Shown piece after piece: positions 10,442-21,041 of a stretch of 64,000 nt of DNA (position 1 is the stretch's first letter; each line of letters begins with the position of its first letter). The notes under the pieces were generated by a model. That model was not told the origin of the DNA, searched no databases, and worked only from the letters and a program-made list of their open reading frames with translations. The stretch lies in contig NZ_JAKZHU010000001.1 in NCBI RefSeq assembly GCF_022568795.1, forward strand, positions 2,356,001 through 2,420,000, written 5' to 3'. The position numbers were made by a program, and so were the translations under genes. The stretch is from Arsenicicoccus dermatophilus. GTDB taxonomy: Bacteria; Actinomycetota; Actinomycetes; Actinomycetales; Dermatophilaceae.

Positions 10442-10807
10442 TGGTGGAGGTGGCGGGAATCGAACCCGCGTCCGCCGACGACGCACCAGGGCTTCTCCGG
10501 GCGCAGTGCGCTGAGGATTTTCTCGGCCCCAGGGCTCGCGCGCACACGTCCCCTGACAGGCCCAGTCGAGAAGGAGTCCCGCGCGCCGTCCCGACACCGG
10601 CGCGCAGCAAGATCTCTAGCTGATGCCGAGCACTAGGACGAGATCAGGCCTAGGTCGACAGACTTCGGGCTCGCTCAGGCGGCGAGGGCGAAGTCGGTGC
10701 GCTTGGAATTGGCACCTATTGGTTTGCTGAGGGCGTTAACGAGACAACTCAGCATCCTCGGCCCGCTTCCCCTGGCAGATCGACCGACGTCGAAACCGAT
10801 CACCCCC
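10442..10807 (-). ncRNA. ssrA: transfer-messenger RNA (tmRNA)
   Basis: The minus-strand 3' end reads ..GGGTTCGATTCCCGCC..ACCTCCACCA, a tRNA-like T-arm and acceptor with an encoded CCA at 10442. The 5' end at 10807 starts GGGGGTGATCGGTTTCGAC, which pairs with it. The tag reading frame is at 10675-10713: resume codon GCC preceded by TAGGT, peptide ANSKRTDFALAA, then TGA. Total length is about 366 nt. It works with SmpB (27482-27961) to free stalled ribosomes and tag the nascent chain for proteolysis. Confidence 0.96.
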
Positions 10808-13933: not shown

Positions 13934-15202
13934 CTATCGCGGCGCCCCGGCACCGCTGCGGTCAGGCCCGCCGAGGCGGCGCACCCGCACCGCGCAGAGG
14001 CCGACGACCAGGCAGGCGGGCAGGCAGGAGAGAGCGAGCGCCGGGTAGCCGAGCGCGCCGACGACGACGCCGGCGAGCGCCCCGCCGACGGCGGCCGTCA
14101 GTCCCATGCACAGGTCGGACAGCCCCTGGACCGGGGCGCGCGCGAGCAGCGGGGTGGCGCCCACCAGCGAGCTCGACGCGCCGATCATCGCGAAGGCCCA
14201 GCCGATCCCCAGCCCGAAGAGCGCCAGCGACAGCAGCCACGAGGCCCCGGCGTGGGTGAGCGCAGCCAGCGCGACCGACGCCGCCTCCACCGCGGCACCG
14301 AGGAGCATGACCCGCCAGGCACCCCAGCGGTCGACGAGCCGCCCGACGAGGGGCGAGAAGGCATACATGCCGAGGATGTGGCCGCTGATGGTCAGCCCGA
14401 TGACCTGCACCGACGCGGCTCCGTGGCGCATGTGGATGGGGGTCATGATCATCACGCCGACCATGACCGTCTGGGCCAGGGCGATGGCGACCATGCAGGC
14501 GGCGACCGTCGGCCGGGTGCGCACCACCTCCCACGCCGAGACCTCCTGGGTGGGGCGGCCCGGCTCCTGGCGGGCGGCGAGCAGCGGGTCCGGTCGCAGC
14601 AGCAGGTGCACCAGCGCGATGGTGACGAGCAGGGCGAGGGCGGTGAGCAGGAAGGCGCCGGTGAGCGAGGGCAGGCCCAGCCGTATGGCGAGCGACCCGC
14701 CCAGACCCGCGAGGTTGGGGCCGGTGACCGCCCCGATGGTGGTCGCCCACACCACGAGGGACAGGTCGCGACCGCGGTGCTCCTCGGTCGCGAGATCCGT
14801 GGCGGCGAACCGGGACTGGGAGTTGGCGGCGCCCGCGGCCCCGAAGAGCGTGGCGGCCCCGAGCAGCAGCGGGAAGGACCGCAGGACGCCGGCGAGGACG
14901 CAGAGCAGCGCCCCCGTCATCCCGATCCCGTAGCCGATGACCAGGCCGACCCGGCGCCCGCGGGCGGTCATCACGCGGGACAGGACGAAGGCCCACAGCG
15001 CGGCGCCCGTCACCTGGGCGGTCTGCGACAGGCCGGCCAGCGACTCACGACCGGACACGTCGGCGGCCAGCAGGGTGGCGACGGTGATGCCGGTGGTGAC
15101 GCCGACGCCGCCGACGGCGTTGGTGACCGCGAGGGTGCGGACGGTGCGGCGCTGCGCCGCGGCGCGCGCGGGGCTGTCGGGCAGGAGCACGTCGCCGGTC
15201 AC
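13934..15202 (-). CDS. major facilitator superfamily transporter
   Basis: 422 aa with about 12 hydrophobic segments. A GRLVDRWGAWRVMLLG stretch matches the MFS A-loop signature in the second half, and ARGRRVGLVIGYG is its counterpart in the first. The start is GTG at 15202. It stands 37 bp upstream of the 3-hydroxyisobutyryl-CoA hydrolase gene and may share its transcript. Its closest look-alikes are drug or metabolite exporters; the substrate cannot be read from the sequence. Confidence 0.88.
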   Translation of the reverse strand: MTGDVLLPDSPARAAAQRRTVRTLAVTNAVGGVGVTTGITVATLLAADVSGRESLAGLSQTAQVTGAALWAFVLSRVMTARGRRVGLVIGYGIGMTGALLCVLAGVLRSFPLLLGAATLFGAAGAANSQSRFAATDLATEEHRGRDLSLVVWATTIGAVTGPNLAGLGGSLAIRLGLPSLTGAFLLTALALLVTIALVHLLLRPDPLLAARQEPGRPTQEVSAWEVVRTRPTVAACMVAIALAQTVMVGVMIMTPIHMRHGAASVQVIGLTISGHILGMYAFSPLVGRLVDRWGAWRVMLLGAAVEAASVALAALTHAGASWLLSLALFGLGIGWAFAMIGASSSLVGATPLLARAPVQGLSDLCMGLTAAVGGALAGVVVGALGYPALALSCLPACLVVGLCAVRVRRLGGPDRSGAGAPR

Positions 15203-15444: not shown

Positions 15445-15915
15445 ATGTCGCTGGTCACCGGCACCCGATCGCTCCTCGCCGGAGCCCTGGTGGGACTCCT
15501 GCTGTCCGGCCGGACCCACGCCGGATCGGCCCGGACGCTGCGCCGCACCACGCGGATGCTGCACCGGACGACCCGGCCCGCACGCACCGCGCCTGGACGG
15601 ACGACACCCCGACGCACGATGCCGGGCGGTGCCCCACCGGTCACCACCACCGTCCTGGTCGGCGGGCAGGACGAGCGGTCGCCGGGCACCTGCGAGCTCA
15701 CCATCGCCTGCCCCGACCGGGCCGCCCTCGAGGTGCGGGTCAGCGTCGGTGGGCGGGCCGCCACCTCGCCCGCGCCGACTGCGGGCAGACCCGCCGGAGC
15801 CACGGTCACCGTCCGGGTCGCCGCCCCGCGCGGCGGGCACCGCCGCACCGTGCAGATCACGCCGGCCGGGACCCCCCGGGCGTATGTCGCGTACGACATC
15901 GCCCAGGTCGCCTGA
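15445..15915 (+). CDS. probable secreted or membrane-anchored small protein
   Basis: 156 aa with a strong GGAGGAGGA ribosome-binding site. A hydrophobic N-terminus (SLLAGALVGLLLSG) is followed by an Arg/Thr-rich stretch (residues about 25-60 with RTTRMLHRTTR-like repeats), then a small beta-rich domain with two Cys (GTCELTIAC). I do not recognise it. The codon pattern fits a real gene, but no family supports it. It ends 93 bp upstream of the cobalamin riboswitch. Confidence 0.55.
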   Translation: MSLVTGTRSLLAGALVGLLLSGRTHAGSARTLRRTTRMLHRTTRPARTAPGRTTPRRTMPGGAPPVTTTVLVGGQDERSPGTCELTIACPDRAALEVRVSVGGRAATSPAPTAGRPAGATVTVRVAAPRGGHRRTVQITPAGTPRAYVAYDIAQVA

Positions 15916-16007: not shown

Positions 16008-16145
16008 GCCGTGCCATGATGGACGCGCCAGGGTCCCCCTGGCCGGTCGTGTCCCAGCGAAGCCGGTGTGATCCCGGCGCTGTCCCGCAACGGTGATGCC
16101 CCCTCCGGGGGACGAGCCCGGTCGCCTGCCACGACTGCCGTGCCA
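16008..16145 (+). promoter_or_regulatory. cobalamin (adenosylcobalamin) riboswitch
   Basis: Core elements occur in the right order: GCCGGTGTGATCCCGGC (16062-16078), CTGTCCCGCAACGGTGATG (16080-16098), a CCCCCTCCGGGGG hairpin, then GAGCCCGGTCGCCTGCC (16114-16130), the B12-box region. This is the conserved cobalamin-riboswitch core. A C/G-rich hairpin at about 16146-16192 lies between it and the ribosome-binding site (GGGAGGTG near 16222) and could be the expression platform. In known cases B12 binding represses the downstream gene. Confidence 0.88.
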
Positions 16146-16233
16146 GCCCCGGCCGAGGGCAGGACGCGATGAGTGCCGGGGCCACCCCCGGCCTTGCGCC
16201 GATCCTCCCGCGCCGTTGCCCCGGGAGGTGTCG

Positions 16234-17562
16234 ATGAGACCGATGGGCGAGCCCCATGACGTGATCTCGGCGGATCCGCAGGTCGGCCGCACCCGGCTGG
16301 GCGACGACGTGCGCGTGATCCTGCGCCTCGGCGGACACCTGGCAGCCGCGGGCACCGGCTCCTACCGGGTGCGGCAGGCCATGCGCACGGTCGCCGCCGC
16401 CCGTTCCATCGATGCCCTGGACGCGACCGTGACCATGACCTCCATCGCGGTCACCGCTCGCCGGGGCGAGGAGTTCCGGACGATAGTGCGCGAGGTCGCC
16501 GGCCCCCACGTCGATGCGGGGCGCATCGCCCGTCTGGAGGGCCTGGCGGCCACGGTCCGCAGCGACGAGGCGGCGTCGTCCATCGACGCCCGCCTCTCGC
16601 GGGTGCTGGAGGTCCCGGGGCGCTGGGGACCTGCCACCAGAGCCTTCGCCGCCGGTGTGGGATGCGCAGCCTTCGCCCTGTCGTCCGGGTTGGGGATCGC
16701 GGACGCCCTGGCCGTCTGCCTGGCTGCAGGCCTGGGCCAGCGGGCCCGCACGGAACTCGTCGGACGACACCTCGCGGACCTCGCCGCCGTCGCCGCAGCA
16801 GCGCTGGTCTCCTGCCTGACCCATGTCCTGCTGGCGAGCCTGGTCGGCCTGCTGCACCAGCCTGCGCCGGTCCACCAGGCAGGACAGGTCGCAGCTCTGC
16901 TCTACCTGGTGCCCGGGTTCCCGCTCTACACGGCCCTCCTGGACCTGGCCCACCTGGACGTGATGGCGGCCCAGGGCCGGCTGGTCCACGTCACGAGCGT
17001 CCTCGGAGTCTCCGGTGGCGTCGCCTGGTCGGTCTCCTCGCTCACGGGCGCCTCGGCCATGCTCCCCGCCCCGTCGGGCGGGTCGCCCCTGAGCCTGCCC
17101 GTCGCCGCGGTCGTAGGCGTGGTGGCCGTCGGGGCCTTCGCCGTCCTCTTCAACTCCCACCTGCGGATGGTGGTCCTCGCCGCCCTGGTCGGCGGCGGTG
17201 CCAACCTGGTGCGGATCTGCCTCGCCCGCCTCGGCCAGCCTCCGCAGAACGCCTGCCTCGCCGCCGGGCTCGTGCTCGGTCTCCTGGCGGCCGGATGCGC
17301 CGCCTGGGCCCAGCTGCCCCGCATCACCGTCTCGGTGCCGGCAGCCGTGGTGATGCTGCCCGGCACGACGATGCACCAGGCGCTCCACCATCTGAACGCC
17401 GGGTCCATGCCGGACTTCCTCGCCGAGACCTGCTCGGCGATGCTCCTCGTCGCCGCCGTCAGCTCCGGGCTGGCCCTGGCCCGCATCCTGACCGATCCCG
17501 GTTGGGCCTACGACCCGCGTCGTGGTGCCCTCGGCGAGCTCCCCGGCAGGACCACACCGTGA
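16234..17562 (+). CDS. ThrE-type threonine/serine exporter family protein under B12 control
   Basis: 442 aa from the ATG at 16234 (GGGAGGTG 7 bases upstream). The N-terminal cytosolic domain (VILRLGGHLAAAGTGSYRVRQAM...TVTMTSIAVTARRG) is the DUF1212/YjjP domain. About ten membrane segments follow, covering the rest of YjjP and a fused YjjB/DUF3815 half, as in Corynebacterium ThrE. Family members export threonine and serine. The cobalamin riboswitch upstream means production should rise when B12 is short, which is unusual for this family. pyc starts 92 bp downstream. Confidence 0.88.
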   Translation: MRPMGEPHDVISADPQVGRTRLGDDVRVILRLGGHLAAAGTGSYRVRQAMRTVAAARSIDALDATVTMTSIAVTARRGEEFRTIVREVAGPHVDAGRIARLEGLAATVRSDEAASSIDARLSRVLEVPGRWGPATRAFAAGVGCAAFALSSGLGIADALAVCLAAGLGQRARTELVGRHLADLAAVAAAALVSCLTHVLLASLVGLLHQPAPVHQAGQVAALLYLVPGFPLYTALLDLAHLDVMAAQGRLVHVTSVLGVSGGVAWSVSSLTGASAMLPAPSGGSPLSLPVAAVVGVVAVGAFAVLFNSHLRMVVLAALVGGGANLVRICLARLGQPPQNACLAAGLVLGLLAAGCAAWAQLPRITVSVPAAVVMLPGTTMHQALHHLNAGSMPDFLAETCSAMLLVAAVSSGLALARILTDPGWAYDPRRGALGELPGRTTP

Positions 17563-17654: not shown

Positions 17655-20600
17655 ATGTTCCGCAAGGTCCTGGTCGCCAACCGCGGCGAGATCGCCGTCC
17701 GCGCCTTCCGCGCCGCCACCGAGCTCGGTGCCACCACCGTCGCGGTGTTCCCCTACGAGGACCGCAACGCGGAGTACCGGCTCAAGGCCGACGAGTCCTA
17801 CCAGATCGGCGAGCAGGGCCACCCGGTCCGCGCCTACCTCGACGTGGCGGGGATGGTCCACGCCGCCCAGGAGGCGGGGGCCGACGCGATCTACCCCGGC
17901 TACGGCTTCCTCTCGGAGAACCCCGACCTCGCCCAGCGGTGCGAGGAGGAGGGCATCACCTTCGTGGGGCCGCCGCACACCGTGCTGGAGCTGACCGGCA
18001 ACAAGGCCCGTGCCATCCAGGCCGCCCAGGAGGCGGGCCTGCCCACCCTCAAGGACTCCGAGCCGAGCGCGGACGTCGACGAGCTGCTGCGCGCCGCGGA
18101 GGGATTCACCTATCCGCTCTTCGTCAAGGCGGTCTCCGGCGGCGGCGGACGCGGGATGCGACGGGTCGCCGAGCCCGCGCTGCTGCGCGCCGCGATCGAG
18201 GAGGCGCAGCGCGAGGCCGCGAGCGCCTTCGGCGACGACCGCATGTACCTCGAGGAGGCCGTGGTCGACCCGCGGCACATCGAGGTGCAGGTCCTGGCCG
18301 ACGGCACCGGCGAGGTCGTCCACCTCTTCGAGCGGGACTGCTCGGTGCAGCGCCGCCACCAGAAGGTCGTCGAGATCGCCCCGGCGCCTGACCTGGACCC
18401 GGCGCTGCGGGAGCGGATGTGCGCCGACGCGGTGCGCTTCGCCCGGCACATCGGCTACGTCAACGCCGGCACCGTGGAGTTCCTGCTCGGCCCGGACGGG
18501 CGGCACGTCTTCATCGAGATGAACCCGCGCATCCAGGTCGAGCACACCGTGACCGAGGAGGTCACCGACGTCGACCTGGTGAGCGCCCAGCTGCGCATCG
18601 CCGCGGGCGAGACCCTGGCCGACCTGGGCCTGACGCAGGACGCGATCCGGCTGCGCGGTGCCGCGCTGCAGTGCCGGATCACCACCGAGGACCCGGCCAA
18701 CGGCTTCCGCCCCGACACCGGCCGGATCATGGTCTACCGCTCCCCCGGCGGCGCGGGCGTGCGCCTGGACGGCGGCACGGTCTTCGACGGCGCCGAGGTG
18801 GGTGCTCACTTCGACTCGATGCTCGTCAAGCTCACCTGCCGCGGGCGAGACTTCGCGACGGCGGTGCGCCGGACCCAACGAGCGTTGCAGGAGTTCCGGA
18901 TCCGCGGGATCTCCACCAACATCGCCTTCCTCGAGCAGCTCGTCGGCGACCCGCAGTTCATCGCCGGGCACGTGACCACGAGCTTCATCGACGAGCGGCC
19001 CGAGCTGCTGCAGGGGCGCATCCCCGCCGACCGCGGCACCAAGCTGCTCACCTACCTCGCCGAGGTCACCGTCAACCAGCCCCACGGCCCGCAGCGCACC
19101 CAGCGCTCGGCCCGGGACAAGCTGCCCGTCCTGGACCCGCAGGTATGGCGCCAGGCCCCGCCCGCGGGCTCCCGCCAGAGGCTCCTGGACCTCGGCCCGG
19201 CGGGCTGGGCCCGGGCACTGCGCGAGCAGACCCGGGTGGCCGTCACCGACACGACCTTCCGTGACGCCCACCAGTCCCTGCTCGCCACCCGGGTGCGGAC
19301 CCGCGACATGCTGCACGTCGCGCCCTACGTCGCCCGCATGCTCCCCGGCCTGCTCTCGGTCGAGGCCTGGGGCGGCGCGACCTACGACGTAGCGCTGCGC
19401 TTCCTGCACGAGGACCCCTGGGAGCGGCTGGCGCTGCTGCACGAGGCCCTGCCCAACCTCCCGATCCAGATGCTCCTGCGGGGGCGCAACACGGTCGGGT
19501 ATACGCCCTACCCCCTGGCCGTCACCGAGGCCTTCGTGGCCGAGGCCGCCCGCACCGGCGTCGACCTCTTCCGGGTCTTCGACGCGCTCAACGACGTGTC
19601 GCAGATGCGGCCCGCGATCGAGGCGGTGCTCGCGACCGACCACGCCGTCGCCGAGGCGGCGCTGTGCTACACGGGCAACATGCTCGACCCCGGCGAGCGG
19701 ACGTACACGCTGGACTACTACCTGCGGCTCGCCGAGCAGCTCGTCGACGCGGGCGCCCACGTGCTCGCGATCAAGGACATGGCCGGTCTGCTGCGCGCCC
19801 CCGCGGCCGCGCGCCTGGTCACCGAGCTGCGCCGGTCCTTCGACCTGCCGGTGCACCTGCACACCCACGACACCGCGGGCGGCCAGCTCGCGACGCTGCT
19901 CGCCGCGATCGGCGCCGGCGTCGACGCGGTCGACGTCGCCAGCGCCGCCATGTCCGGGACCACCTCCCAGGTCTCCATGTCCGCCCTGGTCGCCGCCACC
20001 GACGGCACCGAGCGGGCCACCGGCCTGGACCTCGACGCGGTCTGCGACCTGGAGCCCTACTGGGAGGCCATCCGCCGGCTCTACGCCCCCTTCGAGTCCG
20101 GGCTGCCCGGTCCCACCGGGCGCGTCTACCACCACGAGATCCCCGGCGGCCAGCTGTCCAACCTGCGCCAGCAGGCGATCGCGCTCGGGCTGGGCGACCG
20201 CTTCGAGGAGATCGAGGACATGTATGCCGCGGCCAACCGGATCCTCGGCAACATCGTCAAGGTGACCCCCTCGTCCAAGGTCGTGGGTGACCTGGCGCTG
20301 GCGCTGGTGGGCGCCGGCGCAGATCCTGCTGCGTTCGAGCAGGACCCGCAGCGCTTCGACATCCCCGACTCGGTGATCGGCTTCCTCGCCGGTGACCTCG
20401 GCACCCCGCCCGCCGGCTGGCCCGAGCCCTTCCGGACCAAGGCGCTGGCGGGCCGGCATGCCCGCCCGGTCGTCACCGAGCTCTCCGCGGACGACGAGCA
20501 GGCGCTGCGGACCGAGCCGCGGCGCACCCTGAACCGGCTGCTGTTCCCCGGGCCGACCGCGGACCTGGAGCGGGCGCTGGAGACCTACTCCGACCTGTCC

Positions 20601-21041
20601 GTGCTCAGCACCCGCGAGTTCCTGCACGGCATGGCGGTCGGCGAGGAGCACGAGGTCCCGCTGGAGCGGGGCAAGACGCTGCTCCTGGGGCTGACCGCCA
20701 TCGGCGAGCCCGACGCCCGCGGCATGCGCAACGTCCTGTGCACCATCAACGGCCAGCTGCGCACCATCTCGGTCCGCGACGAGTCGGTGACCTCGGCGGT
20801 GGCCACCGCCGAGCGGGCCGACGCGGGCGTCCCGGGCCAGGTGGCGGCGCCCTTCGCCGGGGTGGTGACGCTCGCGGTCGCGGTCGGGGACGAGGTCACG
20901 GCGGGCACCCAGGTCGCCACCATCGAGGCCATGAAGATGGAGGCCGCGATCACCACCCCCGTGGCTGGAACGATCCAGCGCGTGGCCATCGGTCCGACGC
21001 AAGCCGTCGAGGGAGGCGACCTCCTCGTCGTGGTGGCCTGA
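17655..21041 (+). CDS. pyc: pyruvate carboxylase
   Basis: 1128 aa, full length. Order: biotin carboxylase domain (residues about 1-450; VANRGEIAVRAFRAA, GGGGRGM, EMNPRIQVEHTVTEE), carboxyltransferase domain (TTFRDAHQSLLATRVRT, IKDMAGLLRAPAA, HTHDTAG), and a C-terminal biotinyl domain with the lysine of EAMKMEA. It makes oxaloacetate from pyruvate, bicarbonate and ATP for anaplerosis. The start at 17655 follows GAAGGAGA. Transcription may come from its own promoter or read through from the B12-controlled exporter. Confidence 0.98.
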   Translation: MFRKVLVANRGEIAVRAFRAATELGATTVAVFPYEDRNAEYRLKADESYQIGEQGHPVRAYLDVAGMVHAAQEAGADAIYPGYGFLSENPDLAQRCEEEGITFVGPPHTVLELTGNKARAIQAAQEAGLPTLKDSEPSADVDELLRAAEGFTYPLFVKAVSGGGGRGMRRVAEPALLRAAIEEAQREAASAFGDDRMYLEEAVVDPRHIEVQVLADGTGEVVHLFERDCSVQRRHQKVVEIAPAPDLDPALRERMCADAVRFARHIGYVNAGTVEFLLGPDGRHVFIEMNPRIQVEHTVTEEVTDVDLVSAQLRIAAGETLADLGLTQDAIRLRGAALQCRITTEDPANGFRPDTGRIMVYRSPGGAGVRLDGGTVFDGAEVGAHFDSMLVKLTCRGRDFATAVRRTQRALQEFRIRGISTNIAFLEQLVGDPQFIAGHVTTSFIDERPELLQGRIPADRGTKLLTYLAEVTVNQPHGPQRTQRSARDKLPVLDPQVWRQAPPAGSRQRLLDLGPAGWARALREQTRVAVTDTTFRDAHQSLLATRVRTRDMLHVAPYVARMLPGLLSVEAWGGATYDVALRFLHEDPWERLALLHEALPNLPIQMLLRGRNTVGYTPYPLAVTEAFVAEAARTGVDLFRVFDALNDVSQMRPAIEAVLATDHAVAEAALCYTGNMLDPGERTYTLDYYLRLAEQLVDAGAHVLAIKDMAGLLRAPAAARLVTELRRSFDLPVHLHTHDTAGGQLATLLAAIGAGVDAVDVASAAMSGTTSQVSMSALVAATDGTERATGLDLDAVCDLEPYWEAIRRLYAPFESGLPGPTGRVYHHEIPGGQLSNLRQQAIALGLGDRFEEIEDMYAAANRILGNIVKVTPSSKVVGDLALALVGAGADPAAFEQDPQRFDIPDSVIGFLAGDLGTPPAGWPEPFRTKALAGRHARPVVTELSADDEQALRTEPRRTLNRLLFPGPTADLERALETYSDLSVLSTREFLHGMAVGEEHEVPLERGKTLLLGLTAIGEPDARGMRNVLCTINGQLRTISVRDESVTSAVATAERADAGVPGQVAAPFAGVVTLAVAVGDEVTAGTQVATIEAMKMEAAITTPVAGTIQRVAIGPTQAVEGGDLLVVVA

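Follow-up and report, generated by a model that had tools for sequence, protein, structure and literature searches.

The window analyzed here is a stretch of 64,000 nucleotides of DNA from Arsenicicoccus dermatophilus, to which all positions refer. A short cobalamin riboswitch is found upstream of the gene for a fused transporter of the ThrE/YjjP-YjjB type, and no gene lies between the two. The next gene encodes pyruvate carboxylase (pyc). The features of the locus are presented in Table 1. The short open reading frame that precedes the riboswitch has a high GC3 but a GC2 of 0.71, and its product may be a secreted protein. Elsewhere in the window, a tmRNA gene was found at 10442–10807 on the minus strand.

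Table 1. Features of the riboswitch–transporter locus
Feature	Position	Strand	Evidence or remarks
Short ORF	15445–15915	+	No Pfam match; in a segment absent from sister genomes, where an MFS gene adjoins pyc
Short cobalamin riboswitch aptamer	16046–16135	+	RF00174, 31.6 bits; family model R1, 103 bits; covariation in 24 relatives
Aptamer helices			P3 CAG/CUG; P4 GCCGG/CCGGC; P5 with L5; short P6 CCCC/GGGG
Further aptamer elements			B12-box-like segment GAGCCCGGTCGCCTGCC; flanking P1-like helix GTCGTG/CACGAC
L5 loop segment	16082–16093	+	GTCCCGCAACGG; putative kissing interaction with the regulatory hairpin
Shine–Dalgarno-sequestering hairpin	16204–16228	+	CCTCCCG 16204–16210/CGGGAGG 16222–16228; loop 16211–16221 with CCGTTGC
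Fused ThrE/YjjP-YjjB-type transporter, 442 aa	16234–17562	+	PF06738, 142.8 bits; PF12821, 64.1 bits; phylogeny
Pyruvate carboxylase (pyc)	17655–21041	+	92 nt 3′ of the transporter; NF009554, 1686.8 bits (cutoff 965)

Short Cobalamin Riboswitch

The preliminary description of this DNA had claimed a clear B12 riboswitch core, and this is borne out by the Rfam model RF00174, by a second covariance model (R1), and by covariation in 24 relatives. The RF00174 match (16062–16121, plus strand) marginally passes the gathering score of 31.5 bits, with E-values of 3.1 × 10⁻⁴ when the whole window was searched and 2.5 × 10⁻⁶ when a stretch of 501 bases was searched. Only model positions 51–163 were aligned to the window aptamer. 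The marginal score reflects the absence of the P2 hairpin and of the large P6 extension; these elements, with the peripheral domain, are missing from the riboswitch sequences of the window, of Austwickia, and of a further genome of the Dermatophilaceae (G041). Several other matches to RF00174 above threshold in the family are likewise short, and thus the missing P2 and periphery rule out only the full-length form and not membership in RF00174. Nine matches above the cutoff were found in the window genome. The one linked to the transporter is the weakest, and the other eight mostly precede genes for B12 and cobalt.

The R1 model was constructed from three short relatives (those of the window, Austwickia, and G041), so that its score for the window aptamer was obtained with a sequence from its own training set. 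Searches with R1 retrieved further short cobalamin riboswitches, and the short form is recurrent in the Dermatophilaceae. In the alignment of 24 short riboswitches from the family, 98.5% of the cells were paired and changes on both sides were found in 10 of 17 pairs, where the fitting of the alignment to the R1 structure biases the pairing count toward that structure. This degree of pairing and covariation was reached by none of 500 shuffles, and slid controls dropped to 25–50%. Relative to RF00174, as exemplified by the leader of btuB from E. coli, the window RNA shares the core of P3–P6, L5, and a B12-box-like J6/3 segment; it differs in having no P2, a very short P6, and a marginal score. 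Judged from these comparisons of sequence, the cobalamin riboswitch is real and not a chance match, and we infer that the leader RNA binds cobalamin.

Predicted Expression Platform

The hairpin upstream of the transporter gene is 25 nucleotides in length, ends 5 nucleotides 5′ of the ATG, and buries the Shine–Dalgarno sequence. The calculated fold of positions 16199–16236 has a free energy of –18.5 kcal/mol. The segment GCAACGG of L5 (16087–16093) is a perfect 7-nucleotide complement of CCGTTGC in the hairpin loop (16213–16219), and the probability of such a complement within an 11-nucleotide loop was determined to be about 0.005 from mononucleotide shuffles. A second complement to L5, TTGCG (16194–16198), is located 5′ of the hairpin, and its counterpart in Austwickia, TTGCGG, is found at the matching place and is followed by a separate hairpin across the start region. 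A kissing pair with L5 is proposed, for which the leader offers these two candidate partners.

A hairpin at the Shine–Dalgarno sequence together with a complement to L5 is the layout expected for translational cobalamin riboswitches, and complementarity of L5 to an element at this hairpin is a property shared with RF00174. Since the hairpin buries the Shine–Dalgarno sequence and carries the complement to L5 in its loop, B12 should repress translation. The likely mode of control is thus that translation is off when B12 is present, in keeping with the repression proposed in the preliminary description.

Transporter Subclass

The translation start was assigned to the ATG at 16234, located 5 nucleotides 3′ of GGGAGG, and this assignment agrees with the GC3 bias and coding composition. 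The GTG at 16093, which would give the longest open reading frame, was rejected because of its location within the aptamer and a GC content by codon position that is not coding-like. The ThrE (PF06738) and ThrE_2 (PF12821) domains are found in a single chain and both exceed their gathering scores (26.3 and 27 bits, respectively), which confirms the fused ThrE-type transporter previously noted. This is also the architecture of ThrE, the threonine/serine exporter from Corynebacterium. Unlike that protein, the window protein gave no match at 0.01 to the ThrE equivalogue model NF047720 (cutoff of 550 bits), for which the closest relatives tested scored 50–57 bits and relatives at most 64 bits. The window protein also fails the YjjB equivalogue model NF007391, with 17.6 bits against a cutoff of 249. 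Since both curated models were failed, the protein is assigned to the ThrE superfamily outside of the ThrE and YjjB equivalogue groups. The earlier suggestion that relatives of ThrE could have another substrate is probably correct. No solved structures related to the window transporter were found.

In the phylogenetic tree, a clade of five members from the Dermatophilaceae is sister to the transporters of the Propionibacteriaceae, with a support of 100/100 for the joint group. Canonical-like ThrE paralogues from the same family form a separate clade that is distant from the window subclade. A tree that includes YjjPB consists of only three groups with a long YjjPB branch, and it gives no ranking of the subclade as nearer to YjjPB or to canonical ThrE. 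The relatives' family (f57) is taken here as the Propionibacteriaceae, and genera g244, g268, and g290 as Cutibacterium, Acidipropionibacterium, and Propionibacterium, respectively.

Conservation of the Riboswitch–Transporter Pair

Close orthologues of the transporter (49–53% identical) are found within the Dermatophilaceae in Austwickia (G054, NZ_JAHPZL010000005), G041, and G014/G063. Two scans of genome contigs returned 0 matches and the Austwickia record only, respectively. The Austwickia transporter carries the same riboswitch, with an aptamer that is 80% identical and a conserved linker, CAGCCCCGG[CA]CGAGGGC. The neighboring genes differ from those of the window, and nothing is inserted between the riboswitch and the transporter; an unrelated gene at this position in relatives, which the preliminary description had named as evidence against a functional pair, was looked for and not found. 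The survey of ThrE genes proposed in the same description was positive for Austwickia and negative for about 60 other orthologues, next to which searches with RF00174 or R1 found no convincing riboswitch. The transporters of G041, G014, and G063 are without one, none was found alongside 29 orthologues from other families of the order, and none was found at about 30 transporter loci from the Propionibacteriaceae. From the tree and this distribution, the pair is either ancestral in the five-member clade with two losses, or it has two origins.

All four sister species examined have pyc (81–87% identical). Upstream of pyc, three of these (G074, G035, and G117) carry a divergently oriented MFS gene similar to the one at 13934–15202 on the minus strand of the window; in G035, the two are separated by a different small gene. 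By this comparison, the segment that contains the short open reading frame, the riboswitch, and the transporter is an addition between the MFS gene and pyc in the window genome, and the transporter is sporadic within the genus. Transfer by a plasmid was considered and rejected, with 0 matches among 72,556 plasmids.

The pair could be incidental, an unrelated gene having acquired a mobile riboswitch that has little function. This is consistent with the restriction of the pair to two lineages of a single family and with the sporadic occurrence of the transporter in the genus. Nevertheless, the aptamer, the linker, and the Shine–Dalgarno hairpin have been retained in two genera with different flanking genes, at a protein identity of ~53%, and we regard an incidental pairing as highly improbable.

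No terminator-like site was found between the transporter and pyc, and coregulation of pyc by the riboswitch is possible. The proposal of a designed operon with a cotranscribed and coregulated pyc was weakened by the sister species, which have pyc at this locus, a similar –10-like element, and no transporter. The –10-like sequence before pyc is TAGCCT and is kept in these species. The pyc gene is thus older at the locus and may retain its own promoter.

Co-occurrence with the Propionate Pathway

The organism encodes a propionate route of the Wood–Werkman type, including MutAB, MeaB, and methylmalonyl-CoA carboxytransferase, and the genes for MutAB and MeaB are located on another contig. The 5S subunit of the carboxytransferase, which scores above the curated cutoff in the window genome, Austwickia, and G041, was found in 5 of 5 genomes of the close clade from the Dermatophilaceae versus 26 of 120 overall (p = 3.5 × 10⁻⁴). 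When counted by genus, it was found in 4 of 4 with the transporter versus 10 of 53 (p = 7 × 10⁻⁴), and kinship is allowed for in these p-values through the genus counts only. In the Propionibacteriaceae, the corresponding values are 17 of 17 close-clade genomes versus 91 of 117. In genus g290, the transporter gene and a methylmalonyl-CoA carboxyl-transferase-like gene are divergently oriented, the latter scoring below the cutoff of its model.

The propionate-type methylmalonyl-CoA mutase, MutB, was found in all eight of the transporter-bearing genomes tested. The sister species G074 and G035 have neither the transporter nor this MutB (only a paralogue that is 51% identical), and the presence of the mutase and that of the transporter coincide in the genus, as far as tested. 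Two genomes from the genus Austwickia have MutB and no transporter, which counts against a role that is tied to the mutase.

Proposed Role of the Transporter

The preliminary description had suggested that the transporter moves a corrinoid precursor or handles threonine for the aminopropanol arm of B12. No context other than the riboswitch itself points to corrinoids, and none supports threonine, the export of which would oppose B12 synthesis when B12 is scarce. The phyletic and genomic evidence points instead to B12-dependent fermentation to propionate.

A transporter for corrinoids, their precursors, or chelated cobalt would fit most of the other riboswitch targets in the genome, which are genes for uptake or synthesis, and the nearest riboswitches of the short type, which are found 5′ of transport genes of the BtuFCD-like and family-5 solute-binding types. 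We nevertheless consider a role in the acquisition of B12 or cobalt to be very unlikely. The ThrE/YjjPB superfamily is known for exporting small acids and amino acids, the relatives from the Propionibacteriaceae have neither the riboswitch nor a B12 gene context, and bypass enzymes are equally usual targets of B12 riboswitches, such as the ribonucleotide reductase encoded beside the Austwickia copy of the transporter.

We propose, as a tentative assignment that falls somewhat short of an even chance, that the transporter is a B12-repressed exporter of succinate (or another C4-dicarboxylate) that is used when the B12-dependent mutase stalls, so that the riboswitch would choose the fermentation end product. 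With plentiful B12, the mutase would be active, succinate would be converted to propionate, and translation of the exporter would be off. With scarce B12, MutAB would stall and succinate could not be converted to propionate. Methylmalonyl-CoA would then be absent, the transcarboxylase would be idle, and oxaloacetate would have to come from pyruvate carboxylase. The riboswitch would expose the Shine–Dalgarno sequence, the exporter would be made, and succinate or another C4-dicarboxylate would leave the cell as an end product.

In support of this putative substrate, E. coli YjjPB, of the same superfamily, has been called a succinate transporter (PMC7236211) and bears the same product name in RefSeq. 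In Bacteroides thetaiotaomicron, a lower dose of B12 leads to more succinate and less propionate (PMC10881866). Counting against a succinate exporter are the failed YjjB model, the riboswitch-free loci of the Propionibacteriaceae, the ornithine genes next to some relatives, the age of pyc at the locus, and the presence in the organism of genes for B12 synthesis, including cobN.

An exporter that relieves a stalled mutase could instead expel methylmalonate or another acid derived from propionyl-CoA, rather than fermentative succinate. The same co-occurrence with MutAB and the carboxytransferase would be expected, and methylmalonate is likewise a C4-dicarboxylate. A precedent for such an exporter was not found, and a sister species that lacks the transporter also has the sole nearby gene resembling an acyl-CoA hydrolase (3-hydroxyisobutyryl-CoA hydrolase type). 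This variant is considered to be quite unlikely.

The main rival explanation is a riboswitch-controlled exporter of an amino acid such as threonine, serine, proline, or ornithine, because the transporters of two relatives adjoin ornithine genes. A shortage of B12 would unbalance the metabolism of methionine, threonine, or ornithine through MetH and ornithine 4,5-aminomutase, and the surplus would be expelled. The ThrE of C. glutamicum is a precedent for the export of amino acids within the superfamily. In G041, the transporter gene adjoins an operon for 2,4-diaminopentanoate dehydrogenase and the B12-dependent ornithine 4,5-aminomutase, and in G014/G063, it adjoins genes for ornithine transaminase and a YfcC-like member of the DcuC carrier family. 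OraE is also found in the window genome and in Austwickia. The window protein, however, fails the ThrE equivalogue model by far, the canonical-like paralogues are in a separate clade, and there is no threonine context. The transporter-bearing genomes G014 and G063 have no OraE, whereas G002 and G074 have OraE and no transporter; the transporter thus tracks the ornithine mutase less well than MutB and the carboxytransferase. This mutase was rejected as a general partner since its pattern of presence does not match that of the transporter. Amino acid export is judged to be unlikely, but it carries appreciable weight.

Comparison with Known Systems

To our knowledge, the targets of B12 riboswitches are genes for B12 synthesis, B12 uptake, and B12-independent isozymes, and an exporter of the ThrE superfamily falls outside of these groups. 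A succinate exporter would resemble the isozymes of the MetE and NrdAB type in that a bypass is expressed in the absence of B12; it would differ in that the bypass is the export of a substrate pool and not an alternative enzyme. The window protein shares with YjjPB the two-domain superfamily and the proposed export of succinate; YjjPB consists of two separate chains, and the window protein is a single fused chain that scores far under the YjjB cutoff. We know of no B12 riboswitch for E. coli YjjPB. Within the collection of papers that was searched, there was no relevant paper linking a cobalamin riboswitch with either ThrE or pyruvate carboxylase.

If the assignment as a succinate exporter is correct, the locus would represent a new kind of B12 riboswitch target, an overflow exporter for a blocked intermediate, and the sensing of a cofactor by RNA would be coupled directly to whether succinate or propionate is produced. 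A testable substrate would also be provided for an uncharacterized ThrE subclade found across a family of propionic acid bacteria, in which the export of succinate would affect the yield of propionate.

Other Cobalamin Riboswitches

Several other riboswitch loci were noted. A classic B12 riboswitch precedes the gene for the ribonucleotide reductase alpha subunit directly 3′ of the Austwickia transporter (L071:10977–13797, G054:C45). Divergent pairs of short cobalamin riboswitches, ~200 nucleotides apart, are found in two genomes from the genus Austwickia (G085:C1:2924650–2925014 and G002:C25:32966–33333). In three genomes a B12 riboswitch is located upstream of the genes for the B12-dependent mutase (G000:C2:223760–223983, G041:C1:2551633–2551857, and G054:C6:12026–12321), which would be an unusual target if the riboswitch represses. 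A family of small unannotated proteins (31–35% identical, motif FRLVTxSxDGxLxG), with at best a weak resemblance to GNAT, follows B12 riboswitches at L066:9100–9609 (G000:C2), L067:5126–5581 (G000:C3), and L060:895–1317 (G041); in G000 and G041, a member of this family lies between the riboswitch and mutAB. A B12 riboswitch also precedes the gene for a transporter of the EamA family (DMT) at L066:3504–4989 (G000:C2:218503), which is a second candidate for the riboswitch-controlled transport of a metabolite.
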